From positions 103,516 to 167,515 of IMG/VR virus record IMGVR_UViG_3300032213_002832: a DNA stretch of 64,000 bases; one strand, given 5' to 3'. Below, in pieces: positions 26,314 to 41,154 of this stretch. The position numbers and the translations under genes were made by a program. Numbering within the stretch: position 1 is the stretch's first letter; the number at the start of each line of letters is the position of its first letter. The notes under the pieces are model-generated. The model was not told the DNA's origin and did not search any database. It was given only the letters and a program-made list of their open reading frames with translations. Source of the stretch: a virus.

Positions 26314-26346
26314 TCGCGTCGGTTGTCCGCGCGTAGCAGTGTCAGT
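26314..26346 (-). repeat. 16-mer plus AACCGNNNCGA promoter-like element
   Basis: On the - strand, ACTGACACTGCTACGC (26331-26346) is followed after 6 nt by AACCGACGCGA (26314-26324). It is one of seven such pairs, and the only one without a clear UUCG hairpin before it. Confidence 0.7.
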
Positions 26347-26361
26347 GGTGTGCGGAGTATA

Positions 26362-26838
26362 CTACCTCTTTAATACTATCTTCTCAAAGTTCTCATCTAT
26401 ATAGCGTAACTCATTGTAGTAGTTTAGTTGATCTTGTTCTACTTTATTTGTATCAGCATAATGTTTAAAACCAAATGAAAATGCCATAATAGCATTGCTT
26501 GATACTAGCTTTATATGTGTATCAGTAAAATGGGTTTCATTAACAGCTTGTGCTGCGTATAGAAGAGCACGACCAGCATATATAAAAGCATTTGTTAAAG
26601 TTTGAGGTTTATAATGTGAGTTACATTCCTCATAACAAGCACTACTTGCGTTTATACATTCTTCAATTGTAGCTTTATCTTCTAGCCATAACTCTATTAA
26701 TTTATAAGTATTTTCATATACATGAGAACCATACCAGAACTCTCTAGTTTGATTAGCACAGAATAGAGCAAACCTTACTTGATCTTTGTGAGAGAGTTTG
26801 CTTATTAACTCTTCAGTGATTTGTTTATTTGTCGCCAT
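26362..26838 (-). CDS. SHKD-family protein, copy 3
   Basis: 158 residues: LSHKDQVRFALFCANQTREFW, LIELWLEDKATIEECINASS, an Ala/Tyr-rich middle (FIYAGRALLYAAQAVNETHF) and LNYYNELRYIDENFEKIVLKR. It overlaps the membrane gene at 26825 by 14 nt. Confidence 0.72.
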   Translation of the reverse strand: MATNKQITEELISKLSHKDQVRFALFCANQTREFWYGSHVYENTYKLIELWLEDKATIEECINASSACYEECNSHYKPQTLTNAFIYAGRALLYAAQAVNETHFTDTHIKLVSSNAIMAFSFGFKHYADTNKVEQDQLNYYNELRYIDENFEKIVLKR

Positions 26839-27040
26839 TTGAAGAGTACCTAAAGCCTACTATAGTTAATATGTAAGCAACTAAAAAGGTTAATGTGTTG
26901 GCATATATAGTAGTAGCAAACTTCTCCCAATCTATTAAGTATGGGTGATAGTAGCATAAGCCATACAGAGATCCACCCCATATTACTAAGAAGATAAAGG
27001 TTTTGAGTAATAGAGATTTTAGGGTGACATTCTTAAACAA
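26825..27040 (-). CDS. 71-residue two-span membrane protein
   Basis: Two hydrophobic helices (LLKTFIFLVIWGGSLYGLCY and TIYANTLTFLVAYILTIVGF) separated by a short polar loop. No family recognised. It lies between SHKD-family genes. Confidence 0.6.
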   Translation of the reverse strand: MFKNVTLKSLLLKTFIFLVIWGGSLYGLCYYHPYLIDWEKFATTIYANTLTFLVAYILTIVGFRYSSNGDK

Positions 27041-27043
27041 TGC

Positions 27044-27229
27044 TTACTCCTTATTACATTCACAATCTGGATTGTTAGTATCATAGCTATGAGGGTAGCA
27101 TATAGGATTACATGGGGCTTGTTCATTTTGGATTATTGTGCGAACAGCCTTTATTATACATCCCGCAATAAATATTGAGAGTGCTATATTAAATGCTACA
27201 ATCCAAATTGTTTTTATCTTCTCATTCAT
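27044..27229 (-). CDS. 61-residue single-span membrane protein with Cys-rich tail
   Basis: The helix IWIVAFNIALSIFIAGCII is followed by an outer tail with four Cys (APCNPICYP, PDCECNKE). Topology places the tail in the periplasm. It overlaps the upstream gene by 4 nt. Confidence 0.55.
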   Translation of the reverse strand: MNEKIKTIWIVAFNIALSIFIAGCIIKAVRTIIQNEQAPCNPICYPHSYDTNNPDCECNKE

Positions 27230-27690
27230 ACATTACCTTTCAATACTATATCTTCAAATATGTTGTTTATAGTGTTTAATTCATTATAGTATTCCCATGT
27301 TTCTTTATTAAATCTCTCTCTTTGCTTATTATTAAGAGCAGAATGCGCATAATTAGCACATGTGACAGCCGTATTACAAGCATATGGATTAGTTGAATAT
27401 ATAATATGACCAGCAGTATACGCAACATACGCAGCAGAACGTATGGCATAATCATAACGAGGAGAAAGGGTCATATGGTGAATACTGTTCATGAGTGTTC
27501 TTGCTGATTCATTACATGTTTCTGGTGAAGTTCTATTATTAATATAACCTTCAACAGCATAAACGCATGCTTTAGCAAGATCGCTGCGCCACCATAAATG
27601 ACTCACTCGATTAGTACAGAATAAAGTCCACAGAACTATTTCTTTATCAGATAGTTCTTGTAAATCTTTAAGTGTAACGCTATAATCCAA
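27226..27690 (-). CDS. SHKD-family protein, copy 4
   Basis: 154 residues. The signature is altered to LSDKEIVLWTLFCTNRVSHLW, then AVEGYINNRTSPETCNESAR, an Ala/Tyr-rich middle (AAYVAYTAGHIIYSTNPYAC) and EYYNELNTINNIFEDIVLKG. The shared framework with divergent surface residues is typical of a fast-evolving family. Confidence 0.68.
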   Translation of the reverse strand: MDYSVTLKDLQELSDKEIVLWTLFCTNRVSHLWWRSDLAKACVYAVEGYINNRTSPETCNESARTLMNSIHHMTLSPRYDYAIRSAAYVAYTAGHIIYSTNPYACNTAVTCANYAHSALNNKQRERFNKETWEYYNELNTINNIFEDIVLKGNV

Positions 27691-27691
27691 A

Positions 27692-28465
27692 TTATGCCTC
27701 CAATACTAATTTCTCAAATATATCATCTATATAAGCTAATTCGTTATAATACCTACGTTGTGCTACACGCATCTTTTCACTATCATAGCTTAAGTCCATG
27801 CGTGGATAATAATGTGGTTCAGTGACAGAGTAAAGCATATCGAGCACATCGTCGTCTACACTCTCTTCTATAAGTCTTTCAGCAAAACTTAAACAATAAT
27901 CACTTGTCACCTTATCATCCAACCATAATTGAACTAATTCAGCACATTCTACTGATTCAGGGCTATTTTTCCATAAACGTTTATATTGATTAACACTAAA
28001 TAAATAAAATCTAATTACATCTTTATGGGATAGTTTTTCTCGTTCTTCATATGTAACTGGTATTGCTCTTTTCTTTGCTTTATTCTCTCTTGAAGTTTTA
28101 AGTTCATTAAAATAATCCTCTTGTTCTTTAAGTCTTTTCTTTGATATACGCCTATTAAGACTTCTCCATGTACCTAATGGATCAAGGCTAAAGCAGGCAT
28201 CTAATGCTAATATTGCTGACAACCTGCCGAATTGATCACAATTTAATTTTAATTCTATATCATCATTTAGATCTTTACATTTCTTATTTGTAATCTTACC
28301 CTTTAACCAGAGGTTGATAGTCTTAACAATCAAAACATAAGTAGGTGAATTAGCCCATTGAGCTTTGTATTGATTAGCACAAAATAAATGAAATCTAACC
28401 AAACCCTTTTTAGATAATCTCTTTAATCCTTCTTCAGTAATAACATTAATAATCATAGTACTCAT
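27692..28465 (-). CDS. SHKD-family protein with two tandem domains
   Basis: 257 residues. The first copy starts with LSKKGLVRFHLFCANQYKAQW and INLWLKGKITNKKC and ends YFNELKTSRENKAKKRA. The second copy starts with LSHKDVIRFYLFSVNQYKRLW and VQLWLDDKVTSDYC and ends YYNELAYIDDIFEKLVLEA. This is an internal duplication or fusion of two family members into one chain. Both copies are shorter in the middle than single-domain members. Confidence 0.7.
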   Translation of the reverse strand: MSTMIINVITEEGLKRLSKKGLVRFHLFCANQYKAQWANSPTYVLIVKTINLWLKGKITNKKCKDLNDDIELKLNCDQFGRLSAILALDACFSLDPLGTWRSLNRRISKKRLKEQEDYFNELKTSRENKAKKRAIPVTYEEREKLSHKDVIRFYLFSVNQYKRLWKNSPESVECAELVQLWLDDKVTSDYCLSFAERLIEESVDDDVLDMLYSVTEPHYYPRMDLSYDSEKMRVAQRRYYNELAYIDDIFEKLVLEA

Positions 28466-28680
28466 ATTACTGATCTTAATATATTGATACGTATAGTGAT
28501 TGCTGATTCTACTTTTTCTTTATCTTTTTCATTTGTGAGTGTCTTTAATAGTAGTTTTAAAGCGCTCAATTGCTTATCATGCTTATATTTAGCTGAGTAA
28601 TCAAAGCCCTCTAAACTAATAGGGCATAAAGTTATTTGTCCACCACGTAGTATGAAGTCATCCATAGTTTCTTTTTTCAT
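28462..28680 (-). CDS. 72-residue protein of unknown function
   Basis: MKKETMDDFILRGGQITLCP then a Lys/Glu-rich helix (LKLLLKTLTNEKDKEKVESA). Overlaps the two-domain SHKD gene by 4 nt. No family recognised. Confidence 0.55.
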   Translation of the reverse strand: MKKETMDDFILRGGQITLCPISLEGFDYSAKYKHDKQLSALKLLLKTLTNEKDKEKVESAITIRINILRSVI

Positions 28681-28698
28681 TGTATGCTCCTTTATAAG

Positions 28699-28860
28699 TT
28701 AGATCCAAAAATAACCTTGAGCGTTCTTAACTATAACTGGATTTTGTTGGGTTTGATTATCTGGGATGACGTTGTACCTTGTTCGTTGCATCTTGTATTG
28801 CCAAAGTAGATATGTTCCATCTTTCTGAATACAGCTTTGAACTAAATCCCTATGAGTCAT
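28699..28860 (-). CDS. 53-residue protein of unknown function
   Basis: Begins MTHRDLVQSCIQKDGTYLLW and ends NAQGYFWI. AGGAGG stands 5 nt before the ATG and a promoter-like element lies at 28888-28898. Strong translation signals support it. Confidence 0.6.
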   Translation of the reverse strand: MTHRDLVQSCIQKDGTYLLWQYKMQRTRYNVIPDNQTQQNPVIVKNAQGYFWI

Positions 28861-28887
28861 ACAAACCTCCTATTGATTAATAATAAA

Positions 28888-28898
28888 TCGTATCGGTT
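28888..28898 (-). promoter_or_regulatory. AACCGNNNCGA element
   Basis: AACCGATACGA overlapping the stop codon of the 28898-29353 gene and preceding the 53-residue gene by about 28 nt. Confidence 0.5.
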
Positions 28899-29353
28899 TA
28901 TTTGCCCTTTAATATGATATCTTCAAGTATATTGTCTATATAACATAACTCTTTAAAGTATTGCCGTTGTTGCTTAAGTGTTTTAGTAGGGTATTTAGAG
29001 TAACGTACAACATCTTCAGCTATATCAGCTACACAAGAATCAACTACATAATCTTCATCGTATTCAAGATAAGTTGTAGAAACAGCATGCGCAAGAGCAA
29101 TAAGAGGTGTAGGACTAGGATTAAGGCTATGCTTATGGATGTCTATACGCCAAACCAAGCCATCAAAAGCATCTCTACACTCTTGAATTTTAGTGTTATC
29201 TTCTAGCCAATTATGTATTACTTCATGACACTTAATAACTTCAGGTATATCGGCATATTCTTGTGTTATTTGATTAGCACAGAATAAAGCAAATCTAACT
29301 AAATCTTCGTGGGATAGTTTACTTAATGATCTTGAAGATATGCGTCTAATCAT
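28898..29353 (-). CDS. SHKD-family protein, copy 7
   Basis: 151 residues: LSHEDLVRFALFCANQITQEY, VIHNWLEDNTKIQECRDAFD, a middle with few Ala, and QYFKELCYIDNILEDIILKG. SHED replaces SHKD. Clear paralog of the others. Confidence 0.7.
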   Translation of the reverse strand: MIRRISSRSLSKLSHEDLVRFALFCANQITQEYADIPEVIKCHEVIHNWLEDNTKIQECRDAFDGLVWRIDIHKHSLNPSPTPLIALAHAVSTTYLEYDEDYVVDSCVADIAEDVVRYSKYPTKTLKQQRQYFKELCYIDNILEDIILKGK

Positions 29354-29361
29354 ACATTCTC

Positions 29362-29727
29362 CTATTTTTCTTCATATTCCCAGTCGTTTAATAGTACTTC
29401 TGACGGACTAATACCTAGAATCAAACAATCGCCTACTAAATCATCTCTCCATGGTATGACATCTTTCTTGGTAGATTTTAGCCATTCTTGAAACTCATGC
29501 TGTATACTTCCTTGTATATATGATAAGTTGCCATCTATTGATAATCCATGTAATTCAACTTCATTAGTTTTTTCGTTTAATACTGGTATTATACGACCAC
29601 ATGACTGACCAGCCAGACGAACCCAGTTGGGGCCAAACCAGTAAGGTATATTTCTTTTAGAGTACATATCTGGTTGTCTTCTTGGTTTTTTGACTCTCAT
29701 GTTTTTAGGTATAGCTAATATATTCAT
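29362..29727 (-). CDS. Protein of unknown function
   Basis: 121 residues, basic and Pro-rich at the start (KNMRVKKPRRQPDMYSKRNI), acidic at the end (LLNDWEYEEK). No family recognised. It overlaps the upstream gene by 4 nt. Confidence 0.55.
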   Translation of the reverse strand: MNILAIPKNMRVKKPRRQPDMYSKRNIPYWFGPNWVRLAGQSCGRIIPVLNEKTNEVELHGLSIDGNLSYIQGSIQHEFQEWLKSTKKDVIPWRDDLVGDCLILGISPSEVLLNDWEYEEK

Positions 29728-30005
29728 TTAGTTTTATCCCAGAATTTAATTACTTCTTTCTCTTTATCCATATTGTAGGAGTTCATTGAAGAGATTTTGA
29801 GGTAGCCTATACTATCTTTAGCATTTCCACTCAGCATCTTGAATGCTGTCCCTTCTGCTTCAGCATAACTAGGGTACAATAAGTCGCATCGCTTAGCATC
29901 TATATTTGATAAACTTATATCTTGTCTTTTAGTTGTATTTAATCTCTCTGATACATAGCACCAATCTTTTTCATTTTTGTATTGGATTATTAGTGTATAG
30001 TACAT
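29724..30005 (-). CDS. 93-residue protein of unknown function
   Basis: MYYTLIIQYKNEKDWCYVSE suggests an alpha/beta fold. Its start lies inside the 3' end of the metallopeptidase-like gene (35-nt overlap) with AAAGGGAAG as ribosome site. No family recognised. Confidence 0.55.
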   Translation of the reverse strand: MYYTLIIQYKNEKDWCYVSERLNTTKRQDISLSNIDAKRCDLLYPSYAEAEGTAFKMLSGNAKDSIGYLKISSMNSYNMDKEKEVIKFWDKTK

Positions 30006-30477
30006 GCTTCCCTTTCTCTTTATCTATAAGATCTTGGATATACTCTTGTCTATATAGGTCGTACCAGAGTGGAAGTATTTGTGATGGATACATGATAGAG
30101 AGTGGTCTACCATCTTCGTCCACACTATCATCATGCTCTAATAAGAGAGAGCAATGACCAAGTTCATGGTATATGAGGTTCTCTTTCATACTAGCTGTCG
30201 CTTCATCCCAATACTCTTTGAGTAGCACTATAGTAGGAGGTTCTGAATCTCTTAATTGACATTGACCTACCGTATATGGCAAGATAGCTTTCTTCTTTGC
30301 TTCTTCACTTGGATCTATTTTGTCGACGATTATGATTACTATATTACCAATATGTTTTATTTCTGATTCAAATCTTTCAGCAATTGCTTTTATTTCATCA
30401 GTTTGATAATACTTAATATTACCTTCATTACCACAAGCGGTTAATGATAATATAGCTAATACCTTAACTAATCTCAT
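29971..30477 (-). CDS. Lipoprotein with HExxH zinc-metallopeptidase motif
   Basis: 168 residues. Lipoprotein signal MRLVKVLAILSLTAC. The zinc motif is YHELGHCSLLLEHDD (HExxH with a further His after six residues), followed by a possible Met-turn SIMYPSQI, reminiscent of metzincins though the third-ligand spacing is not the standard HExxHxxGxxH. It should be anchored outside the inner membrane. A phage-encoded surface metallopeptidase adds to the exported trypsin and PDZ proteins in this window. Confidence 0.68.
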   Translation of the reverse strand: MRLVKVLAILSLTACGNEGNIKYYQTDEIKAIAERFESEIKHIGNIVIIIVDKIDPSEEAKKKAILPYTVGQCQLRDSEPPTIVLLKEYWDEATASMKENLIYHELGHCSLLLEHDDSVDEDGRPLSIMYPSQILPLWYDLYRQEYIQDLIDKEKGKHVLYTNNPIQK

Positions 30478-30502
30478 AAAACCTCCTATTAATAATGATA
30501 AA

Positions 30503-30513
30503 TCGTGTCGGTT
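30503..30513 (-). promoter_or_regulatory. AACCGNNNCGA element
   Basis: AACCGACACGA directly after the 30513-30692 gene's stop and about 26 nt before the metallopeptidase-like gene; TATTAA follows 19 nt from its start and then AGGAGG. Confidence 0.5.
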
Positions 30514-30692
30514 TATTTACATGTCATTGGCTTTCCATCAGGACTTAGATGTACGGCTAAGCCGCTATCGGATTGGGCATACTCAACACCAGACTTTGAG
30601 CATTTGTAAGTTAATTCACCCGTATATCGAGTACATGCTCTTTGAAAACCACCACAACCAACTAATAATAAACAAGCAAATAATAATTTCAT
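30513..30692 (-). CDS. 59-residue lipoprotein
   Basis: MKLLFACLLLVGCGGFQRAC is a short signal with a strong lipobox (LVGC). The mature part of about 46 residues has three more Cys. AGGAGA stands 5 nt before the ATG and the start overlaps the end of the upstream gene. Confidence 0.65.
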   Translation of the reverse strand: MKLLFACLLLVGCGGFQRACTRYTGELTYKCSKSGVEYAQSDSGLAVHLSPDGKPMTCK

Positions 30693-30931
30693 ACTTTATC
30701 TCCTTTTAATACTATCTTCTCAAACTTTTCACCTATCTCATGCTCTTCAATAAGAGTAATAAGTTCTTTCATAGACATTTCTACTCTATGTCCGAATTCT
30801 TTACCATCATTAAAGTTTACATAACAAACAGAATCTTTAAATTGTTTATCACTATGAGGACTTATCGATGTTACATTATCTAAGTTTATGTAGTGTAGTT
30901 TATCTTTAGCCATAAGTTTAATAAATCTCAT
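30689..30931 (-). CDS. 80-residue protein with shared EKIVLKGDKV tail
   Basis: MRFIKLMAKDKLHYINLDNV is followed by beta-like segments and a C-terminal helix. It is a paralog of the next upstream gene (30928-31167): both open with short strands and a Lys-rich turn and end EKIVLKGDKV or ENIILKGDKV. The tail codons contain AAAGGAG, the ribosome site of the next gene. Confidence 0.6.
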   Translation of the reverse strand: MRFIKLMAKDKLHYINLDNVTSISPHSDKQFKDSVCYVNFNDGKEFGHRVEMSMKELITLIEEHEIGEKFEKIVLKGDKV

Positions 30932-31167
30932 ACCTTATCTCCTTTTAATATAATGTTTTCAACATCTTTGTTTATGTTATATTCATTAATTAAAGCTACA
31001 ACATCTTCTATAGGTTTTTCTAATGATACACGATGTGGATCACCACCTCCAGTATAGAGATACACGCAACACTCATCACCCCCTTCATCTTCAATACTAA
31101 GTATTCTATCTATATCTATAATTGCCATTAACTTGTTCTCTTTATCTGTTACTCTTAATAAGTTCAT
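30928..31167 (-). CDS. 79-residue paralog of the 30689-30931 protein
   Basis: MNLLRVTDKENKLMAIIDID then an acidic middle and VALINEYNINKDVENIILKG. The ending matches SHKD-family proteins (LEKIILKG) although the rest of the protein is unrelated, suggesting exchange at the gene junction. Overlaps the next gene by 4 nt. Confidence 0.58.
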   Translation of the reverse strand: MNLLRVTDKENKLMAIIDIDRILSIEDEGGDECCVYLYTGGGDPHRVSLEKPIEDVVALINEYNINKDVENIILKGDKV

Positions 31168-31373
31168 ATATTAGCCTTTACAAATAATATTTTTAATCTA
31201 CCCAAAACTAATCTATATACATATTTATGTACATTTCTATAGTAGACTCTATCAAAAGCAACTAAACTATCAACTCTACACTTATGCTTAACAATATTAT
31301 CCCACCAACAAGTGTTTTTTCTAGATAAACCAATTACTATAAAATATTTACCTATTTTAAATGTTTTAGGCAT
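31164..31373 (-). CDS. 69-residue basic protein of unknown function
   Basis: Rich in Lys, Arg, Tyr and Val (FKIGKYFIVIGLSRKNTCWW). No family recognised; overlaps the downstream gene by 4 nt. Confidence 0.5.
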   Translation of the reverse strand: MPKTFKIGKYFIVIGLSRKNTCWWDNIVKHKCRVDSLVAFDRVYYRNVHKYVYRLVLGRLKILFVKANI

Positions 31374-31375
31374 AC

Positions 31376-31783
31376 TTATCCTCCTAATAATATCTGTTCG
31401 GTTATTTTATTAAAGTCTCTTAACTCAATAAGATAATCCCATTGCTCTTTTAAACGCTCATTATGAGTTTTACGAGTTGTATAGCGAAATACATTATCCG
31501 AAACATGCCAAGCATTACCTGCTGATTCATCATCATTGCGGTCAACACTAGCCACACTATATCCTGTAGCATAGGCTATACGATTATCAGTATTATCAGC
31601 TGCTTGATCACATTGTTTAAGTGTAGCTTTATCTTCTAGCCACAACTCAACTGTTCTTATCGCCTTTACAGCCTGTATATCTGTAATCCACTTATCTTGA
31701 ACTTGGTAAGCACAGAATAAAGCAAATCTCACAATATCTTTGTGAGAGAGACTTTCTAAATCTGATATTTGAATCTTATCCAT
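31376..31783 (-). CDS. SHKD-family protein, copy 8
   Basis: 135 residues: LSHKDIVRFALFCAYQVQDKW, AVKAIRTVELWLEDKATLKQ, Ala/Asp-rich middle (AADNTDNRIAYATGYSVASV) and QWDYLIELRDFNKITEQILL. Slightly shorter than the others. Confidence 0.7.
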   Translation of the reverse strand: MDKIQISDLESLSHKDIVRFALFCAYQVQDKWITDIQAVKAIRTVELWLEDKATLKQCDQAADNTDNRIAYATGYSVASVDRNDDESAGNAWHVSDNVFRYTTRKTHNERLKEQWDYLIELRDFNKITEQILLGG

Positions 31784-31792
31784 ATTATCCTA

Positions 31793-31987
31793 CTAAAAGG
31801 TAATTTGTTGTTCATCTATATCTACCCATAAATACCTTGTGCCATTATCTAAAAATACACACTCTTGGTTGGTTGCTATTCTTATCACTCTTGCTTCTTT
31901 ATAAAAGGATAAAAGTTGCTGGCCAGATAGGTAATACTTCTTAACAGATGAGTCAGTAATAGCATAGATAAAGAATTTCTCATTCAT
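31793..31987 (-). CDS. 64-residue protein of unknown function
   Basis: Beta-rich appearance (MNEKFFIYAITDSSVKKYYL). A good ribosome site (AAGGAGA) lies in the end of the upstream 50-residue gene. No family recognised. Confidence 0.55.
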   Translation of the reverse strand: MNEKFFIYAITDSSVKKYYLSGQQLLSFYKEARVIRIATNQECVFLDNGTRYLWVDIDEQQITF

Positions 31988-31988
31988 C

Positions 31989-32141
31989 TTATTCTCCTTG
32001 AGTTATGAAGTTATAATCTACGGTGTGAGCATCTTCAATGTCTTCTAGCTGTACCATCATGTTATAGCAGAGATCATTCTGTTGCTCTTCTGTAAGTGGT
32101 TCACTAGTCTTAAAAGTGAATACAAACTGATACTGTGCCAT
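31989..32141 (-). CDS. 50-residue acidic protein of unknown function
   Basis: Begins MAQYQFVFTFKTSEPLTEEQ and ends DYNFITQGE. GGAGG lies 5 nt before the ATG and the AACCGNNNCGA promoter-like element lies just upstream, so it heads its unit. Confidence 0.6.
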   Translation of the reverse strand: MAQYQFVFTFKTSEPLTEEQQNDLCYNMMVQLEDIEDAHTVDYNFITQGE

Positions 32142-32164
32142 ATAACCTCCTATATAGTTAAGGT

Positions 32165-32252
32165 TCGAATCGGTTATTGGTATGAGTATACAGTAGCTCT
32201 ATGCGGCTGGCGTAGCAGTGTCAGTGTTAAAAAGCAGGCCGAAGCCTGCTTA
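32165..32252 (-). repeat. Terminator / 16-mer / promoter-like module
   Basis: In - strand order: hairpin AGCAGGC-TTCG-GCCTGCT with T-run (32229-32252), ACTGACACTGCTACGC (32210-32225), 34 nt, AACCGATTCGA (32165-32175), then TATAGG and GGAGG. It ends the 32264-32566 gene and starts the 31989-32141 gene. Confidence 0.75.
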
Positions 32253-32263
32253 GTAGATAGTGG

Positions 32264-32566: not shown

Positions 32567-32581
32567 TTAATACTCCTTAAA

Positions 32582-32608
32582 TAAAAAGTAGGGACCGAAG
32601 TCCCCACA
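32582..32608 (-). terminator. UUCG-loop terminator
   Basis: Stem GGGGAC/GTCCCT with TTCG loop followed by CTTTTTATTT in - strand direction, just after the 32618-33097 gene. No 16-mer accompanies this one. Confidence 0.75.
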
Positions 32609-32617
32609 TACTATAGA

Positions 32618-33097
32618 TTACTTAACCAAGTGGCGTAGTGCTTCAGGTAGAGCGTCAAGGTTGATTGTCTTGACTTTCTTAGCTACTTTGGCTGAATTCA
32701 ACTCAGCAGTTCTAGAGAAGATTGCTGCGTCAATTTCAGTGATCGCATCAGCGTCAGAGAGAGTTGAGCGTAGAGCTTTAAGTGCTTTTAGCTGATCATC
32801 ACCAGCTCCACTTCGGCTTCCTGGGTTTTTGATCTCAGATTTAACTCCACCATTTAGTCTTTTGTCTTTGCGTAAGTGGTTGTTTACCATGCCAACTACA
32901 TAACCTTTAACTTTAGCATCTGTGTCGTACTTGGCTTTGGCTGATGCTGTGAAGTCAACTTTGCCAGAGAGAATACCAGATGTTACAATCTGGATTACAC
33001 TATTTCTCTCTTCTTTTGTCAACTCAACAGCTGAATCAAAGCTGTCTTGTCCCAAAGCACCACATACTGCGTGAAATACTGCGTCGTTCTGCTGCAT
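32618..33097 (-). CDS. NHLRKDKRLNGG-family protein
   Basis: 159 residues from MQQNDAVFHAVCGALGQDSF (GGAG 6 nt upstream; a longer frame to 33163 crosses the promoter element and is rejected). The core reads GYVVGMVNNHLRKDKRLNGG, IKNPGSRSGAGDDQLKALKA, then a helix and the end INLDALPEALRHLVK. Close paralogs are at 37640 and 39745. The conserved basic core suggests nucleic-acid or protein binding; no named family. Confidence 0.72.
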   Translation of the reverse strand: MQQNDAVFHAVCGALGQDSFDSAVELTKEERNSVIQIVTSGILSGKVDFTASAKAKYDTDAKVKGYVVGMVNNHLRKDKRLNGGVKSEIKNPGSRSGAGDDQLKALKALRSTLSDADAITEIDAAIFSRTAELNSAKVAKKVKTINLDALPEALRHLVK

Positions 33098-33147
33098 AAA
33101 TACTCCTAAAATGTTGATGTTATATACTAAAACTCGTATACAACTCT

Positions 33148-33268
33148 CGTTTCGGTTGATCACAACCTATTTGTCATCAACTTACAAGTTAACATCGATT
33201 CGGTTTAAAACCTTGTTAGTCGGCTGGTGCGTAGCAGTGTCAATGTAAAATGGGGACCGAAGTCCCCA
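33148..33268 (-). repeat. Terminator / 16-mer / double promoter-like module
   Basis: In - strand order: TGGGGAC-TTCG-GTCCCCA hairpin (33251-33268) with TTTT, a one-base variant of the 16-mer (33229-33244), AACCGAATCGA (33195-33205) and a second AACCGAAACGA (33148-33158). The only module with two promoter-like elements. Confidence 0.72.
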
Positions 33269-33278
33269 CAGTTGTATA

Positions 33279-33774: not shown

Positions 33775-33775
33775 A

Positions 33776-33973: not shown

Positions 33974-33997
33974 ATAACCTCCAAGTGATTTATATAG

Positions 33998-34243
33998 TTA
34001 AATCGATTCGGTTGGGATTAATAGCTTATGGCTTTCTACTTCTACTTGTACTCTGATTAATAACTCATCATCTTCATCAGCATAAAATGTCAACTCATCA
34101 ACCATTTGCTGGTCAGTCATTTTATTTAGTCCCACCATACCTTCATAAACTATCTCTTCTTTACCATAACCATCAAACAGAACTTCCAATCTATCTTCAG
34201 CTAATCTCTCTTTTAACTCTTCTCTTAGTAATTCGTTTAGCAT
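33998..34243 (-). CDS. 81-residue protein, paralog of 33472-33774
   Basis: LREELKERLAEDRLEVLFDG then IVYEGMVGLNKMTDQQMVDE matches the 100-residue protein downstream. The last codons (PTESI, stop) contain a promoter-like element AACCGAATCGA at 34003-34013, so coding and regulatory sequence overlap. Confidence 0.6.
   Translation of the reverse strand: MLNELLREELKERLAEDRLEVLFDGYGKEEIVYEGMVGLNKMTDQQMVDELTFYADEDDELLIRVQVEVESHKLLIPTESI
34003..34013 (-). promoter_or_regulatory. AACCGNNNCGA element in a gene's 3' end
   Basis: AACCGAATCGA lies within the last codons of the 33998-34243 gene; TATAAA follows 19 nt from its start, then GGAGG for the 33776-33973 gene. Confidence 0.5.
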
Positions 34244-34245
34244 AA

Positions 34246-34416
34246 TTACCTCATTTTTTGATTAAGTTTACGAGACCAGTTAAGTGTCGCAGCATAAGCA
34301 TAACTTCGATTAGTAAATCCCTTTGGAAGTATTGTATTAACTTTTCCATTTTCCATATCAGCATATACAAGCCACCAGTCAAACTTGTTCTTTACTATAC
34401 ACTCTTGAATAGTCAT
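34246..34416 (-). CDS. 56-residue basic protein
   Basis: Begins MTIQECIVKNKFDWWLVYAD and ends SRKLNQKMR. GGAGG stands 5 nt before the ATG and a promoter-like element precedes it at 34445-34455. Confidence 0.58.
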   Translation of the reverse strand: MTIQECIVKNKFDWWLVYADMENGKVNTILPKGFTNRSYAYAATLNWSRKLNQKMR

Positions 34417-34444
34417 ATAACCTCCATTATTGTATAAGCTTAAC

Positions 34445-34455
34445 TCGATTCGGTT
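34445..34455 (-). promoter_or_regulatory. AACCGNNNCGA element
   Basis: AACCGAATCGA with TACAAT 21 nt from its start, upstream of the 34246-34416 gene. Confidence 0.5.
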
Positions 34456-34476
34456 TTATTCACCTATGTAATAATG

Positions 34477-34506
34477 AAAATCCCTACCACTTTTCAGTAG
34501 TAGGGA
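34477..34506 (-). terminator. Terminator after the 37-residue membrane gene
   Basis: Stem TCCCTAC/GTAGGGA extended by ACT/AGT across one mismatch, loop of four, followed by TTTT in - strand direction. Confidence 0.65.
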
Positions 34507-34531
34507 GTAAAAGGGGAAACAACTGGAGGTG

Positions 34532-34645
34532 TTACTTATTGGATATTACAAAACCTATTAATACTAATACACCTATACTTAACACTATTGATATGAAAGC
34601 CATACCACTGAATACATTATCCATCTGATTGATTACCATTTCCAT
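34532..34645 (-). CDS. 37-residue membrane peptide
   Basis: MEMVINQMDNVFSGMAFISI then SIGVLVLIGFVISNK; one hydrophobic helix. AAGGAGG stands 6 nt before the ATG and a terminator follows. Confidence 0.6.
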   Translation of the reverse strand: MEMVINQMDNVFSGMAFISIVLSIGVLVLIGFVISNK

Positions 34646-34646
34646 C

Positions 34647-34889
34647 TTATGCCTCCTTCAACAAGCCGTTAAGCCTGAAGTCGTATGTAAGGGATTGGTC
34701 AATTGCTATAAGTATATCACCTCGCGTAAACACTTCACCACATGGATCTAGTTTACCTATTGCAATAGCATTCTCAATAATATCAGCAACTAAGCTTATT
34801 TGTCTATTAGAGAGCAAGACTTGCTTACCCTTTGGAGTAGGATTTGTAACATATTGTATAGCTTCGTAAATACCTTCAACTATAAACAT
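34647..34889 (-). CDS. 80-residue protein of unknown function
   Basis: MFIVEGIYEAIQYVTNPTPK with a helix-rich middle (QISLVADIIENAIAIGKLDP). A good AAGGAGG site. The stop abuts the 37-residue gene. Confidence 0.55.
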   Translation of the reverse strand: MFIVEGIYEAIQYVTNPTPKGKQVLLSNRQISLVADIIENAIAIGKLDPCGEVFTRGDILIAIDQSLTYDFRLNGLLKEA

Positions 34890-34901
34890 AAACCCTCCTT
34901 T

Positions 34902-35138
34902 TTAGTACTCGTCGTCTTCATCTTCTTCGTCTTCATCTTCATATTCATCTTCGTCTGGGTCAAATATGCTATCTAATGCCTCTTCCATATAGTATGGATC
35001 ATTCATGTAATCAGCTGCTTCTTCTTCACTTTCATCATAAGTAGGATCATAGCCGAACATTTCATCTGGGTACTTATCTGATTCATAATCAATGTCTGTT
35101 AGTAAGTCAATCTCAACACCACCAAAATTTGCTTTCAT
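34902..35138 (-). CDS. 78-residue very acidic protein
   Basis: The C-terminal 25 residues are almost all Asp, Glu and Tyr (FDPDEDEYEDEDEEDEDDEY). Such DNA-mimic-like acidity is seen in some phage inhibitors of host DNA-binding proteins, but this is only suggestive. The first 30 residues begin MKANFGGVEIDLLTDIDY. Confidence 0.58.
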   Translation of the reverse strand: MKANFGGVEIDLLTDIDYESDKYPDEMFGYDPTYDESEEEAADYMNDPYYMEEALDSIFDPDEDEYEDEDEEDEDDEY

Positions 35139-35180
35139 AAATACTCCTTATTAATGAGTTGTTTAACGAACATGTTATTC

Positions 35181-35191
35181 TCGTATCGGTT
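35181..35191 (-). promoter_or_regulatory. AACCGNNNCGA element
   Basis: AACCGATACGA, directly after the 35192-35566 gene's stop and upstream of the acidic protein gene. Confidence 0.45.
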
Positions 35192-35566
35192 TTAAACTCT
35201 ATCCTTCTTCTTAAAGATCTTCATATAAGTGGCCTCTTTTCTCTTAATAGCCTTTTCCATAGCAACTACTCTAGCTAATAGTGCGTTATACTTATCGTCC
35301 ACTACTTCTTGCTTTTCAGCCACTATTGGGCAATTTATCTTTGCCGCATGAGTGATATAGTACTGATCTCTCACTATTCCATCATATATCCACTTAAAAG
35401 GTGAAGTAGAATAAAAAGTCATATTATGACCATCATTCACTTTAATTACCTCATTTTCATAGTAGGCTGTAAAAACATATACATTAGAGGATCCGAATTT
35501 CACTACATATATTAAGAAATTCCCATCAACTAATTCCCACTCTTCTATAGGTATCCAGTCAATCAT
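35192..35566 (-). CDS. Protein of unknown function
   Basis: 124 residues with a beta-rich, Trp/Tyr-rich first half (MIDWIPIEEWELVDGNFLIY) and a basic coiled-coil end (NALLARVVAMEKAIKRKEAT). The first half resembles the small DUF551-like WxP domains of phages, unproven. Overlaps the upstream gene by 8 nt. Confidence 0.55.
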   Translation of the reverse strand: MIDWIPIEEWELVDGNFLIYVVKFGSSNVYVFTAYYENEVIKVNDGHNMTFYSTSPFKWIYDGIVRDQYYITHAAKINCPIVAEKQEVVDDKYNALLARVVAMEKAIKRKEATYMKIFKKKDRV

Positions 35567-35912
35567 ACTTCACTCCTCCACACCATGTAAGATACCAATT
35601 AAACTCAATATACCGTATATCACCATCATAATACGTACCCTTTTTATGGTGTATTCTTATACCCTTAAACTCTTCAACCTTACATAATATATCTACTATA
35701 TCTTCACCCTTACTACTGCTGTGTATCTCATGTGTATAGTTATGCTCACCTCTTTTAGCTGCTTTTACCATACCTTCAATAATCTCATCTTTTACAGCTA
35801 AAACATCCTTCTCTGCTAAAGCTACTGATTCCCTTTTCTTAAGTTCCTTAGCAACATCAGTATATAAAACAAGCCTAGAATACAAACTATACTTATTTCT
35901 AAACCATTTCAT
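35559..35912 (-). CDS. Protein of unknown function
   Basis: 117 residues from MKWFRNKYSLYSRLVLYTDV; GAGGGAG 7 nt upstream makes this start better than 35969, which runs through the duplicated gene remnant. C-terminal end is rich in aromatic residues (FNWYLTWCGGVKYD). Confidence 0.55.
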   Translation of the reverse strand: MKWFRNKYSLYSRLVLYTDVAKELKKRESVALAEKDVLAVKDEIIEGMVKAAKRGEHNYTHEIHSSSKGEDIVDILCKVEEFKGIRIHHKKGTYYDGDIRYIEFNWYLTWCGGVKYD

Positions 35913-35928
35913 ATATACACTCCCTCTT

Positions 35929-35985
35929 TTATAAAATCTCAGTGCCAATAGTACCTTCAAATATCTCACCTCGCTCCGGAATCAT
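35929..35985 (-). pseudogene. Remnant of a duplicated gene's 3' end
   Basis: Translates as MIPERGEIFEGTIGTEIL and then stop, matching the end of the 36672-36896 protein (VGEIFEDSVGKEIL, stop). The preceding 35982-36176 gene matches the rest of that protein but ends earlier in another frame. This is a shifted leftover of the ancestral C-terminus; an ATGA overlap could still allow its translation. Confidence 0.6.
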
Positions 35986-36176
35986 TTAAAGTCCTCAGTA
36001 TAAATTGGTTCATTTGGGAGCATATTGAATAACTCTCTTGTTACCGGAATTCCATGCCAACTCCTACGAGCAATCTCAATTTTAGCATATCTAATCTCTT
36101 CTGAAACATCAGCTAAATTTTCTTCTAGCTCACGCTTATATTCATCCCAAGTTATCTCAGACTTCGAATACTTCAT
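35982..36176 (-). CDS. 64-residue paralog of 36672-36896 with a changed C-terminus
   Basis: ELEENLADVSEEIRYAKIEI then HGIPVTRELFNMLPNEP aligns with ELEESLANVPKDLRDAKIEV then FGILSSKELLNKLPIGP. The C-terminus diverges at a frameshift, and the old ending lies downstream (35929-35985). ATG at 36176 is chosen because GAGG stands 6 nt before it; the longer frame starts with GTG. Confidence 0.62.
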   Translation of the reverse strand: MKYSKSEITWDEYKRELEENLADVSEEIRYAKIEIARRSWHGIPVTRELFNMLPNEPIYTEDFK

Positions 36177-36177
36177 A

Positions 36178-36657
36178 TTAGTCCTCACTCAATTTAATAT
36201 AAGCATTATTGGCTATAATAGCACCTTGAACACTATAGTAAACATCTTCTATATGAGTGATATCCCACTTATGTTCTGAGTAACGATGAGCGCTCACTAT
36301 ATTTTCAATTCTTTCTATAGCATCTAATACTTCATGTTTACAATATAAGTAATGATAAAATCTATCTGTATTATCAGCATCATAACCTGATTCTATCCCA
36401 TCATACCCTATATACTCAAACATCACCTCTGTTAAGTACATACTTTCATTATCATTACAGGTTTTATGAAACATATCAGTTGTAATACTACCTTCCAACC
36501 AACGATTAACTAATCCCCTTACATTAGAAATTACTTTACGATGATCTATTACCTCATTAGAGATTTTATCTAAAAAAGACAAGGCTAAAACAACAGTTTC
36601 TTTATGAGATAACTCTCTAATATTTACACCAGCAATCATGTATACCTCTTTACTCAT
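36178..36657 (-). CDS. SHKD-family protein, divergent copy
   Basis: 159 residues. LSHKETVVLALSFLDKISNE is the altered signature; LVNRWLEGSITTDMFHKTCN corresponds to the ELWLED segment. The C-terminal YYNELRYID block is missing. It is the most distant family member and is embedded between the two duplicated ELEE-type genes. Confidence 0.6.
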   Translation of the reverse strand: MSKEVYMIAGVNIRELSHKETVVLALSFLDKISNEVIDHRKVISNVRGLVNRWLEGSITTDMFHKTCNDNESMYLTEVMFEYIGYDGIESGYDADNTDRFYHYLYCKHEVLDAIERIENIVSAHRYSEHKWDITHIEDVYYSVQGAIIANNAYIKLSED

Positions 36658-36671
36658 ATAGACTCTCCTTT

Positions 36672-36896
36672 TTATAGAATCTCTTTACCAACAGAATCTT
36701 CAAATATCTCACCCACTTTAGGACCAATAGGAAGTTTGTTTAATAGTTCTTTAGAAGAGAGTATTCCAAACCAACGGTTATATACTACCTCAATCTTTGC
36801 ATCTCTAAGATCTTTGGGTACATTAGCCAAGCTTTCTTCTAGCTCTATTTTACGTCTATTCCAACGTTGCTCTAATGTCTTTACTAAATATTCCAT
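36672..36896 (-). CDS. 74-residue protein, paralog of 35982-36176
   Basis: MEYLVKTLEQRWNRRKIELE then LANVPKDLRDAKIEV and the end VGEIFEDSVGKEIL. This seems to be the intact version of the duplicated pair. GGGGA precedes this start; an in-frame start at 36929 is less well placed. Confidence 0.6.
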   Translation of the reverse strand: MEYLVKTLEQRWNRRKIELEESLANVPKDLRDAKIEVVYNRWFGILSSKELLNKLPIGPKVGEIFEDSVGKEIL

Positions 36897-37231
36897 TAAT
36901 AATCCCCTTACTAAACTACCACTAAACATACATGAATACCCTATACCTAGACAATACTACATATATACAAATACCCTACTAACAGATTTACTCGAATCGG
37001 TATAGAGATACATACCAGTACCACACTGAGGAGAGTGTGAGGAGTAATGTGAATATTGGTGTAACTAGCAGATATTACAGAGGCGGAAAAGTGTGAAGAG
37101 TAGGGTGAGTTGGCGGAGTCACACTAAGTCAGCTTGACTTACGACTACTCTTCACAACCGACTCACACATCTCCATACCGATTCCTCTGTTTCTCTACCC
37201 CTAAACTGAATTGTTTAGAACCTAAAACTGA
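36897..37231. other. Non-coding stretch with inverted repeats and a promoter-like element
   Basis: It contains ACCGATTCGA (36992-37001, - strand) ahead of the 36672-36896 gene, and an inverted repeat GTGTGAAGAGTA (about 37092) / TACTCTTCACAA (about 37146). GAGGAGTAATGTGA near 37045 resembles GAGGAGTAGTGTGA that occurs twice on the - strand of the 40.7-40.9 kb gap. No gene seen. Confidence 0.45.
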
Positions 37232-37519
37232 TTATATTCCGTACTCATCGTCATGTTCTATATAGTCTGTCTCTTGATTAAGTTGTAGTTCATCCATCTC
37301 TTTTTGAAAGGATTCATCTTCATATTCTCCTATTACCCCTATACAATCTTGGATAAATGCCATCTCTATACCCATAAGTGTAGGATTATTACAGTCTGGA
37401 CAAGAGTAATTCTTGGCGTCTGGTTCTACTCCGCCTTCTTTTGTTATGCTGTTACAGTGGGAGCAATAGCCATTATTGTGATTACAGTGAATATAATACT
37501 CATACTCTGAAAGTCTCAT
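37232..37519 (-). CDS. Zinc-ribbon-like protein
   Basis: 95 residues. CNHNNGYCSHC and CPDCNNP supply paired Cys spaced like a zinc ribbon, followed by an acidic tail (HDDEYGI). May bind nucleic acid or polymerase. Heads its unit from the module at 37550-37632. Confidence 0.62.
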   Translation of the reverse strand: MRLSEYEYYIHCNHNNGYCSHCNSITKEGGVEPDAKNYSCPDCNNPTLMGIEMAFIQDCIGVIGEYEDESFQKEMDELQLNQETDYIEHDDEYGI

Positions 37520-37549
37520 ATATACTCTCCTTTGTTGTATAAGTGTAGA

Positions 37550-37632
37550 TCGATTCGGTTTGAGTGTGTATGTAGGTGTAAGTGGCTGTAGGCGTAGCAG
37601 TGTCAGTATAAAAGCGGAGCCGAAGCTCCGCT
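37550..37632 (-). repeat. Terminator / 16-mer / promoter-like module
   Basis: In - strand order: hairpin AGCGGAGC-TTCG-GCTCCGCT plus TTTT (37609-37632), ACTGACACTGCTACGC (37592-37607), 31 nt, AACCGAATCGA (37550-37560), TACAAC 21 nt from its start, AAAGGAG. Confidence 0.78.
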
Positions 37633-37639
37633 CGTTTAG

Positions 37640-38104
37640 CTACTTAACTAGATATCTTAGGCTTTCAGGTAGAGCGTCTATGTTTATAGTTGCTTTAGGT
37701 TTAGCTTGCTGTAGTTCAGCTAGTCTTTCAGCTATTGCTTCATCAACTTGTGCTAATTGCTCTGGATCAGTGATACCATCTCGTAGTGTTTTCAGTGCTT
37801 TAAGTTGCTCATCTTTAGGTCTAGAGGTTTTAGGTATGTCTTGTATACCACCATTTAATCTCTTATCTCTTCTTAAGTGATTACTAACCATTCCAACAAC
37901 ATACTCTTTTACTAGCTTACTCGTATTGTATTTGGCTTTCGCTTCAGTAGAGAAGTCAACTTTGTTAGCTAATATGCCTTCAGTCACTATATTCACTACA
38001 TTATTCCTCTCTTCTTTAGAGAGTTCAACTGCTGAGTCAAAGCTTGTTTTGTCTAATACTGAGCAAACTGCTTGAAAAACTGCATTGATTTGAGATGTTG
38101 TCAT
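37640..38104 (-). CDS. NHLRKDKRLNGG-family protein
   Basis: 154 residues: MTTSQINAVFQAVCSVLDKT, FDSAVELSKEERNNVVNIVT, EYVVGMVSNHLRRDKRLNGG, then KDEQLKALKTLRDG and the end INIDALPESLRYLVK, identical in its last 15 residues to the 39745-40227 protein. The IKNPGSR segment is replaced by IPKTSRP. Confidence 0.72.
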   Translation of the reverse strand: MTTSQINAVFQAVCSVLDKTSFDSAVELSKEERNNVVNIVTEGILANKVDFSTEAKAKYNTSKLVKEYVVGMVSNHLRRDKRLNGGIQDIPKTSRPKDEQLKALKTLRDGITDPEQLAQVDEAIAERLAELQQAKPKATINIDALPESLRYLVK

Positions 38105-38137
38105 AAATACTCCTTTGTTGTTAATTATATAGTTGAC

Positions 38138-38148
38138 TCGAATCGGTT
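38138..38148 (-). promoter_or_regulatory. AACCGNNNCGA element
   Basis: AACCGATTCGA with TATAAT 19 nt from its start, upstream of the 37640-38104 gene and overlapping the stop of the 21-residue gene. Confidence 0.55.
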
Positions 38149-38212
38149 AACGCATTGATATACCTATGAAAAAGCCAATACTTAAACCCATCACAAACAT
38201 AGTAAAGATCAT
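38147..38212 (-). CDS. 21-residue hydrophobic membrane peptide
   Basis: MIFTMFVMGLSIGFFIGISM then R and stop. AAGGAG stands 6 nt before the ATG and a full promoter module lies upstream. Short, but the signals are as good as for larger neighbours. Confidence 0.5.
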   Translation of the reverse strand: MIFTMFVMGLSIGFFIGISMR

Positions 38213-38244
38213 ATACTCTCCTTTGTTGTTGTTATACAGCATAC

Positions 38245-38310
38245 TCGATTCGGTTAAGCTCTGTGTAGGCGTAGCAGTGTCAGTAAAAAAGCGGGCCGAA
38301 GCCCCGCTTT
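38245..38310 (-). repeat. Terminator / 16-mer / promoter-like module
   Basis: In - strand order: AAGCGGGGC-TTCG-GCCCGCTT with one bulged G and TTTTTT (38285-38310), ACTGACACTGCTACGC (38269-38284), 13 nt, AACCGAATCGA (38245-38255), TATAAC. Confidence 0.78.
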
Positions 38311-38318
38311 GTTATTGG

Positions 38319-38564
38319 TTAGGTATTGGTGTCTGTTATTGTGAGGGTTATGTTGTTATTTTCAAATCCAAGTGTTAATGAGTATGGACTCTCGTCTAAC
38401 CAAGCAGAACCAGGACCGAAGTTGTCTAGCTGGTGCTCGGTCTTCTTAGTTATCTTACAAAACTTTGTTATCTTATCCTCATTTCCTTTAGTAAACTGGG
38501 CAAACAAGTCATCCACATCAGAAGAGTAATTATCATAGCCAATAACCAAAGTTAATGTTCTCAT
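38319..38564 (-). CDS. 81-residue protein of unknown function
   Basis: MRTLTLVIGYDNYSSDVDDL with a beta-like end (YSLTLGFENNNITLTITDT). No family recognised. Has its own promoter-like element at 38600 and a terminator module downstream. Confidence 0.58.
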   Translation of the reverse strand: MRTLTLVIGYDNYSSDVDDLFAQFTKGNEDKITKFCKITKKTEHQLDNFGPGSAWLDESPYSLTLGFENNNITLTITDTNT

Positions 38565-38599
38565 GTAAACTCCTTTGTTATTAATTATATAAGTTTAAC

Positions 38600-38610
38600 T
38601 CGATTCGGTT
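38600..38610 (-). promoter_or_regulatory. AACCGNNNCGA element
   Basis: AACCGAATCGA with TATAAT 21 nt from its start, preceding AAAGGAG and the 38319-38564 gene. Confidence 0.55.
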
Positions 38611-38656
38611 TAGAAAAGAGGGGTAAACATCCATATTCACCCCACTTTATATCAAC

Positions 38657-38983
38657 TTACTTCTTTCTATATACTTCCAACCCATAATATAATCCATTAC
38701 CACTTCCATCCATATCCACACCCATATTCACATATCCTAACTTATTCATTTCACTTTCCAATCTATCAAAAAATCCATTCCATAACCAACCTTGAAACCT
38801 ATCTTTCTCATCACTACTCATATCATCATCCATCCAATCATAATGAATAACCACATCACTATCACACAACACTATATCACTATATTCAAAACTACCTCTC
38901 ACATCATCATGATTACTCACTTCAACACTTCCAAACTTATCCCATGAATTCAAATTAACTAACAACTCATTAACTTTATTCAT
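38657..38983 (-). CDS. 108-residue protein of unknown function
   Basis: MNKVNELLVNLNSWDKFGSV with an acidic, Trp-containing middle (VVIHYDWMDDDMSSDEKDRF) and GSGNGLYYGLEVYRKK end. The coding strand is notably C-poor in this gene, unlike its neighbours. No family recognised. Confidence 0.58.
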   Translation of the reverse strand: MNKVNELLVNLNSWDKFGSVEVSNHDDVRGSFEYSDIVLCDSDVVIHYDWMDDDMSSDEKDRFQGWLWNGFFDRLESEMNKLGYVNMGVDMDGSGNGLYYGLEVYRKK

Positions 38984-39036
38984 GAAAACCTCTTTAATTA
39001 ATTAATAACTTAATTGTTATTAATTATATAATATAG

Positions 39037-39100
39037 TCGGATCGGTTAAGTGGGCTAGAGCGTAGCAGTGTCAGTGATAAGCGGGACCGAAGTCCCGCTT
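39037..39100 (-). repeat. Terminator / 16-mer / promoter-like module
   Basis: In - strand order: AAGCGGGAC-TTCG-GTCCCGCTT (39079-39100), ACTGACACTGCTACGC (39060-39075), 12 nt, AACCGATCCGA (39037-39047), TATAAT 19 nt from its start. Confidence 0.78.
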
Positions 39101-39106
39101 AGTTAG

Positions 39107-39310
39107 TTAGTCATATTTTCTAGGGTGTAAAGTTCTAAGTATATACTCCATTAAGTCTGGCAATACAGTCTCACCAAACTCTTCACTACTAGTAACAAGT
39201 TCATCTAGTTGACAACACTTTTCTTTTTCTTCTTCAGTACACTGATCATATAGCTTAAGATTAATATAACCGTCATTTGTAATCACTACTAAGTTACTTA
39301 ATATACTCAT
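39107..39310 (-). CDS. 67-residue acidic protein of unknown function
   Basis: MSILSNLVVITNDGYINLKL and a helical acidic end. No family recognised. Own promoter-like element at 39342. Confidence 0.56.
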   Translation of the reverse strand: MSILSNLVVITNDGYINLKLYDQCTEEEKEKCCQLDELVTSSEEFGETVLPDLMEYILRTLHPRKYD

Positions 39311-39341
39311 ATATACTCCTTTGTTATTATATAAGTTTAAC

Positions 39342-39352
39342 TCGATTCGGTT
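39342..39352 (-). promoter_or_regulatory. AACCGNNNCGA element overlapping a stop codon
   Basis: AACCGAATCGA; its first two bases are part of the 39351-39641 gene's TAA. TATAAT follows 21 nt from its start. Confidence 0.55.
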
Positions 39353-39641
39353 AAGTATACATGGTTGCTATTTCTTCTTTCGAGTAGATTCTCACTGAAT
39401 AAGATTGTCCTAGTGGTATATCAAACTTAGCAAGATAATAAGAACTCATACCCTTAAAGCCATCTTCATCTGTAATTGGTATACGGAATGGTTTACCAAG
39501 ATCTGTAACAGGGATAATTATATTGAGCAGACTAGGTGTAGTTATATTGAATCCAGTAATAGTGCCATTCTGTATCTCTGTGACTTCTTGATCAGTTAAG
39601 CTGATAGTATTACTATAGTTTGTCTTCTTATCTCTGTACAT
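39351..39641 (-). CDS. 96-residue protein of unknown function
   Basis: Beta-rich pattern (FNITTPSLLNIIIPVTDLGK, YLAKFDIPLGQSYSVRIYSK). No family recognised. Driven from the 39670-39735 module. Confidence 0.56.
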   Translation of the reverse strand: MYRDKKTNYSNTISLTDQEVTEIQNGTITGFNITTPSLLNIIIPVTDLGKPFRIPITDEDGFKGMSSYYLAKFDIPLGQSYSVRIYSKEEIATMYT

Positions 39642-39669
39642 AAAACCTCCATAGTTATATAAGTTTAAT

Positions 39670-39735
39670 TCGAATCGGTTTACTCCTCACCCCAGCGTAG
39701 CAGTGTCAGTGATAAGCGGGACCGAAGTCCCGCTT
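39670..39735 (-). repeat. Terminator / 16-mer / promoter-like module
   Basis: In - strand order: AAGCGGGAC-TTCG-GTCCCGCTT (39714-39735), ACTGACACTGCTACGC (39695-39710), 14 nt, AACCGATTCGA (39670-39680), TATAAC 21 nt from its start, GGAGG. Confidence 0.78.
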
Positions 39736-41153: not shown

Positions 41154-41154
41154 C

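Follow-up and report, generated by a model that had tools for sequence, protein, structure and literature searches.

The 64,000-nucleotide stretch analysed here, which we call the window, spans positions 103,516 to 167,515 of the IMG/VR virus record IMGVR_UViG_3300032213_002832. Between accessory genes it carries repeated modules composed of a hairpin, a 16-mer and a promoter element, and we propose that the 14-mer core of the 16-mer is probably a binding site for a transcriptional activator. A sequence-only reading of the window had described seven copies of the 16-mer on the minus strand. The repeated modules are confirmed, and so are the number and the strand of the copies, far beyond chance: shuffled sequences contain on average 0.31 matches at ≤3 mismatches (largest 3). 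Six copies are exact (26331, 32210, 37592, 38269, 39060 and 39695). The copy at 33229 has one mismatch (ATTGACAC...), and its 14-mer core, TGACACTGCTACGC, is exact. An eighth match, on the plus strand at 16638, has three mismatches, lies within an open reading frame (ORF) and is probably due to chance. The window is the last 64 kb of a 167.5-kb record; a search of the rest of the record returned no further copies, and those in the window are restricted to 26.3–39.7 kb.

Numbered from the highest coordinate down, copies 1 to 7 occupy 39695–39710, 39060–39075, 38269–38284, 37592–37607, 33229–33244, 32210–32225 and 26331–26346. Each is followed on the same strand by a promoter element: AACCGATTCGA at 39670–39680 (copy 1) and 32165–32175 (copy 6), AACCGATCCGA at 39037–39047 (copy 2), AACCGAATCGA at 38245–38255, 37550–37560 and 33195–33205 (copies 3, 4 and 5), and AACCGACGCGA at 26314–26324 (copy 7). 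The earlier claim that all seven 16-mers lie 6–34 nt before AACCGNNNCGA is borne out by remeasurement, with gaps, in ascending window coordinate, of 6, 34, 23, 31, 13, 12 and 14 nt. The window contains 23 occurrences of the element AACCGNNNCGA, always on the minus strand, versus 0.31 expected; only seven of these carry the 16-mer.

A hairpin with a UUCG loop precedes six of the copies, as the sequence-only reading had stated, and the U-tract that it attributed to all six is present in four. Copies 3 to 6 follow terminator hairpins with a U-tract, at 38288–38310, 37612–37633, 33250–33269 and 32232–32251, all on the minus strand. The CUUCGG hairpins on the 5′ side of copies 1 and 2 (minus strand, 39713–39736 and 39078–39101) are near-identical and carry the tail CTTATCAC in place of a U-run. 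Upstream of copy 7 there is neither a CUUCGG hairpin nor any other strong hairpin.

A near-invariant 14-mer in distantly Mx1-like phages

The annotated phage collection contains no near relative of this phage. Over two thirds of its length, its tail sheath shares 34% identity with the sheath of Myxococcus phage Mx1, and its terminase, portal, DNA polymerase III alpha, RecA-like and SSB proteins match those of Mx1 at 24–30%. Closer sheaths (40–86%) are found in 63 IMG/VR loci. The sequence-only reading had proposed searching relatives for the 16-mer and took absence there as evidence against its account of gene shuffling at the modules. The exact 16-mer is present in 44 stretches of IMG/VR contigs and, at ≤2 mismatches, in 41 of the 50 records searched; some lone intragenic matches (e.g. 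L037, L042) are probably chance. The 14-mer core recurs in about 50 distantly Mx1-like IMG/VR phages.

What is conserved across these phages is the 14-mer TGACACTGCTACGC with flanking C's, the consensus being [C/T]TGACACTGCTACGC and then mostly C; the leading A of the 16-mer is not conserved. We collected 162 non-redundant core copies from 48 phage clusters at ≤1 mismatch, and the only variants among them are T1>C, T7>C, C9>T, A11>T and C14>G. In oriented loci, 339 exact 14-mers point forward relative to transcription and none points in reverse. A search of Mx1 did not find the core word, and the INPHARED cultured phages, queried with the composite pattern, gave only two matches, at chance level. 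Among the matches in cellular genomes is one phage contig binned in a Cytophagales metagenome-assembled genome. The 14-mer was not found in the literature searched.

A block of about 130–190 bp lies 0.6–0.9 kb upstream of the first core in several of these phages (L158:8022-8150, L154:2100-2229, L019:1026-1191 and equivalents). Between phages with diverged flanking DNA its identity is 78–87%, and it is possibly a control region or origin.

The core lies at whole helical turns from the promoter

The promoter association extends beyond the window. Within 80 nt downstream of the core, CCGANNC is present at 62 of 115 copies in a set that was not selected for the promoter, versus 9.25 in shuffles. 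The longer form CCGANNC[GT]A lies within 100 nt downstream at 74 of the 162 copies, upstream at 3 and in reversed orientation at none, in a set that is partly promoter-selected because loci L255–L271 were retrieved with the promoter in the search pattern.

The distances from the core end to the promoter cluster at 5–8, 13–18, 25–29, 35–37 and 46 bp, with peaks at about 6, 15, 26, 36 and 46 bp. For 63 spacers, which are less than 60% identical at equal length, the phasing strength R is 0.52 at a best period of 10.25–10.5 bp (scanned from 6 to 16 bp), and none of 20,000 null sets scores as high. With one copy per phage (n=33) the phasing remains (p=3e-5), and the differences in spacing within a phage are also phased (0 of 5,000 null sets as high). 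Control distances are flat, with R of 0.02 from core to start codon, 0.10 from promoter to start codon and 0.07 from stop codon to core. The pattern was first noticed in the same data that gave its statistics, and a further viral scan for new copies returned mostly the same contigs, hence no independent replication.

Helical phasing is expected where two partners bound to DNA need to meet on the same side of the helix. Combined with the fixed orientation, the phasing points to an asymmetric protein that binds the core and makes contact with the transcription machinery of the promoter. The sequence-only reading had argued from the varying distance that the 16-mer is not the −35 box of the promoter element. 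That conclusion stands, whereas the variation is not free, as the whole helical turns carry signal. TTGACA-like letters do occur in some copies; no −10 is properly spaced from them, and it is the separate CCGANNC promoter that is phased. Sites resembling TTGACA-TATAAT are no commoner than in shuffles. We also rejected an SP6/T7-like promoter, which would share TGACACT with the core, because the sequence is GC-rich where melting is needed; a PF00940 search carries no weight, its controls having been silent.

Our preferred interpretation, which we consider probable on the strength of sequence comparison, is that the 14-mer serves as a DNA site for an activator that contacts RNA polymerase, within a terminator-operator-promoter module. 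The stem-loop would end the upstream transcript. Next would come an oriented double-stranded DNA site of 14–16 bp, and then the phage promoter, in which CCGANNC[GT]A is accompanied by an AT-rich region resembling a −10. The 14-mer would be bound as an asymmetric unit by a sequence-specific protein, probably encoded by the phage, that touches RNA polymerase or the polymerase's sigma factor from the upstream side. Such a contact would restrict the site to one helix face, one orientation and promoter distances between one and about four turns. We consider activation likelier than repression. In this phage's promoter there is a TAT at offset 18; if it starts the −10, the core centres would fall near −42, −52, −62 and −72.

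Several observations weigh against the activator site. In about half of the copies, no CCGANNC[GT]A can be recognised within 100 nt. The −10 regions of core-bearing promoters score better, not weaker, than those of core-less promoters, so that activator dependence is not visible in the promoter itself. Kinship among the phages weakens the phasing: it is retained at p=0.005 over 22 clades, and over 12 very strictly defined clades R is still 0.46 with p=0.08. The core-to-CCGA distances in the window (16, 14, 15, 33, 25, 36 and 8 for copies 1 to 7) are consistent with the phasing; taken by themselves they do not reach significance (R=0.56, p=0.11). The pairing of hairpin flanks into the core, described below, is not accounted for by a DNA site alone, and a terminator stem overlapping the operator would suffice to explain it. 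Finally, the DNA-binding protein is one that we infer, and its proposed identity is that of a candidate only.

Seven phages (L162 and six others) encode a sigma-70-like factor in the divergent region near the cores. This factor could be the reader of the CCGANNC promoters.

If the activator site is correct, a near-invariant operator with a readable spacing rule, present in about 50 uncultured phage lineages, would provide a handle on how accessory genes are switched on. The operator would predict membership of the regulon and point to a protein family of unknown function as the likely partner.

Hairpins upstream of the core

Across phages, a strong hairpin (−8 kcal/mol or better, ending ≤35 nt upstream) is found at 82 of 113 core copies, compared with 6 in the downstream control, and the mean folding z is −2.2 upstream of the core and −0.07 downstream. 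Base pairing between the core and sequence on its downstream side does not exceed that in shuffles. The hairpin 3′ arm ends 0–2 nt on the 5′ side of TGACAC in 61 of the 162 copies, the highest count of the registers tried. Where the hairpin abuts the core, its 5′ flank pairs on into the core TGAC without a bulge in 15 of 43 cases (null 0.8, maximum 5), and in 26 of 43 with one bulge allowed (null 2.3, maximum 8).

The upstream hairpins and their pairing into TGAC, with the orientation fixed relative to transcription, would fit a hairpin and a conserved 3′ tail (UGACACUGCUACGCC) that are read as RNA in the upstream transcript, for example as a nut-like antitermination signal, a processing site or a protected 3′ end. 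We regard such an RNA element as unlikely. The distance from hairpin to core is loose, from 0 to about 34 nt, the copy at 26331 has no hairpin, and the window copies show no such flank pairing. A search with Rfam covariance models gave no match at gathering score, and an RNA read in the upstream transcript offers no reason for helical phase with a downstream promoter.

A TTT run separates hairpin and core in only 21 of the 82 strong hairpins, so the U-tract terminators of the window are one flavour among several. Since the core always lies 3′ of the hairpin in the direction of transcription, the 14-mer might itself take part in termination, either by substituting for the U-tract or through a bound protein that acts as a roadblock just after the hairpin. 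We find this less plausible still than an RNA element: phasing between core and promoter has no place in such a scheme, one core in the window lacks a UUCG hairpin, and terminators at 32588–32607 and 34481–34506 of the window have no core.

Gene exchange at the modules

The sequence-only reading likened the modules to cassettes that help gene shuffling, with the 16-mer as a patch of homology or as a protein site, and asked whether gene content changes at them. Gene pairs are conserved across the core in 4 of 112 comparisons, versus 39 of 116 for long core-less gaps. At junctions with exactly one gene of the A1 family (see below), pairs are conserved in 0 of 14 with a core, versus a mean of 46% in 20 without. 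Adjacency across modules is thus low, as anticipated, in a comparison that rests almost wholly on one multi-copy family, A1; junctions without A1 leave the comparison no power. Between relatives, some blocks of homology stop exactly at the core. In the window, a 51-nt block of hairpin and 16-mer at copy 2 is 96% identical to that at copy 1 (repeat family D9) between unrelated neighbour genes, which directly demonstrates that this piece can be copied.

All this would fit a 14–16-mer maintained for cassette exchange, whether by site-specific recombination or by annealing, as an independent version of the T4-type cassettes. We consider this explanation very improbable. Tyrosine recombinases (PF00589) were absent from 11 records and serine recombinases (PF00239) from 10, with positive controls that worked. 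Having detected neither an integrase nor a resolvase in the genomes searched, we rejected a site for a site-specific recombinase. The word is near-invariant across phages that share little DNA, in fixed orientation and at whole-turn spacing, which requires a selected, sequence-specific function at each site; a homology patch would need neither invariance, nor orientation, nor helical spacing. Of the two roles suggested for the 16-mer, the protein site survives, which we would read as that of a transcription factor. The modules can be copied either alone or together with the genes that lie between them, and so probably also mark cassette borders; this looks like a consequence of the modules rather than the reason for the conservation of the 14-mer.

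A1 proteins as candidate partners of the 14-mer

A1 is a paralogous family of proteins of 150–180 residues. Four A1 genes lie on the minus strand of the window. Two of them end shortly before a core: the gene at 39745–40227 (160 residues) 36 nt before copy 1, and that at 37640–38104 (154 residues) 34 nt before copy 4. The third (32618–33163, an ORF of 181 residues, or 159 from a start at 33097) is followed by a UUCG terminator without a core, and the fourth (23676–24110, 144 residues) has no downstream core. Three to five members are present in each of 14 core-bearing records larger than 85 kb that were tested. These records were mostly picked for carrying the core, so that the informative direction is the reverse, a search for A1 alone. 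This profile search returned 66 loci, mostly in core-bearing contigs. A1 is absent from Mx1 and from a core-less record of 83.6 kb (G049). A1 genes often end 30–130 nt upstream of a core, and the left neighbour is an A1 gene at 31 of 90 core junctions versus 46 of 1,086 others (p=3e-17). Common descent of a cassette, and not binding, may account for this linkage. At two loci with divergent A1 genes (L226 and L233) the core is missing and no motif obviously takes its place, so we rejected the idea of a different motif that co-varies with divergent A1.

Searches with A1 sequences of PHROGs, Pfam and the Protein Data Bank (PDB) yielded no PHROG, no shared Pfam and no PDB match, only scattered weak Pfam matches of single members. 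An AlphaFold2 model of the protein encoded at 37640–38104 is confident (pLDDT 92.7) and consists of seven helices. Compared with PDB structures it gave no significant match (Foldseek, best E 0.76; VIA-align, best Z 4.5 over 55 residues), and there is one relative, viral and uncharacterised. A conserved stretch around RKD.RLNGG...KNPGSR would be a plausible nucleic-acid contact.

We take A1 as the leading, unproven candidate for the partner of the 14-mer. A bolder proposal, which we put forward tentatively and think rather doubtful, is that the A1 paralogues are a new class of activators that read the 14-mer, and that gene, terminator, operator and promoter have spread jointly in the form of self-regulating cassettes. 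An accessory gene would then join the phage early regulon as soon as it is acquired.

Early phage promoters often exploit host regulators, and the promoter class found here could be read by the host polymerase; the 14-mer might be bound by a protein of the host and not of the phage. This too is a slim prospect. Carriers of the core differ widely in relatedness and in base composition, and across 84,980 species genomes the composite pattern, which was searched for rather than the 14-mer alone, occurs at about chance level.

Two small cysteine-rich proteins of 79–87 residues (L011:3213-3732 and equivalents) are encoded near cores in 18–24 phages. They are candidates for alternative regulators.

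Other features of the region

Tandem paralogous small proteins are encoded on the minus strand at 25361–31783 of the window (repeat families D2, D3, D5 and D8). Beyond the divergent region, on the plus strand at 41082–42774, a 65-nt repeat occurs four times in small ORFs (family D6). Collagen-like repeats with a nine-base period are present in two minus-strand genes (14498–14584 and 18772–19062). A phosphoesterase-kinase fusion (2382–4673) and an RNA ligase (5176–6291) are encoded close together and possibly form an RNA repair pair. The ORF at 102406–103809 of the record (G000), whose end is window 1–294, shares 51% identity with the Mx1 nicotinamide phosphoribosyltransferase, by far its best conserved match.

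Comparison with known systems

Like lambda nut and the boxB-boxA elements of rrn operons, the modules place a hairpin beside a conserved word, single-stranded in those systems, in several copies in the early region. They differ in that the element lies upstream of a promoter and is phased with it, and the word matches boxA only at TGCT.

MotA boxes of T4 have a fixed place, where they replace the −35. The proposed activator would resemble MotA, and also Mor of phage Mu, in bringing host RNA polymerase to a single class of phage promoters. The target of Mor is a 16-bp element with inverted repeats, centred at −43.5 (PMC4390567). The site described here is non-palindromic and lies at variable, phased distances, and no homologue of either protein was identified.

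The PhoP box has been shown experimentally to work as a single site, in a defined orientation and at whole helical turns (PMC3335776). As with the PhoP box, and with class I sites of CRP, one type of site would be active at several whole-turn distances in a set orientation; the 14-mer is found at whole-turn distances, a signal that is weaker after strict clade correction, and in fixed orientation. The PhoP box is a direct repeat read by a response regulator, in contrast to the non-repeated, asymmetric word of unrelated sequence found here.

The promoter-plus-stem-loop cassettes (PeSLs) of T4-type phages were reportedly described by Arbiol and colleagues in 2010 and by Comeau and colleagues in 2014. 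The suggestion that the modules are an independent version of PeSLs holds for the layout, a composite of terminator, 16-mer and promoter, and not for promoter type or phage lineage. Both systems (for PeSLs, see PMC4503421) place a stem-loop terminator and an early promoter between small accessory genes, in many copies, and gene content differs around the modules, a difference that is seen here almost wholly in one multi-copy family; six of the seven modules in the window join a stem-loop to a promoter. The promoter here, AACCGNNNCGA or CCGANNC[GT]A, is not of the sigma-70 type by consensus. The phage is not a T4-like myovirus: its core proteins match Mx1 at 24–51%, and it uses DNA polymerase III alpha. 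Between hairpin and promoter there is an additional, near-invariant and helically phased 14-mer. The likeness to PeSLs is one of layout and may extend to the consequence, with recombination at these modules as a possibility. The modules would be a second kind of terminator-promoter cassette, which can be compared with the PeSLs of T4 in how phages acquire genes and wire them up.

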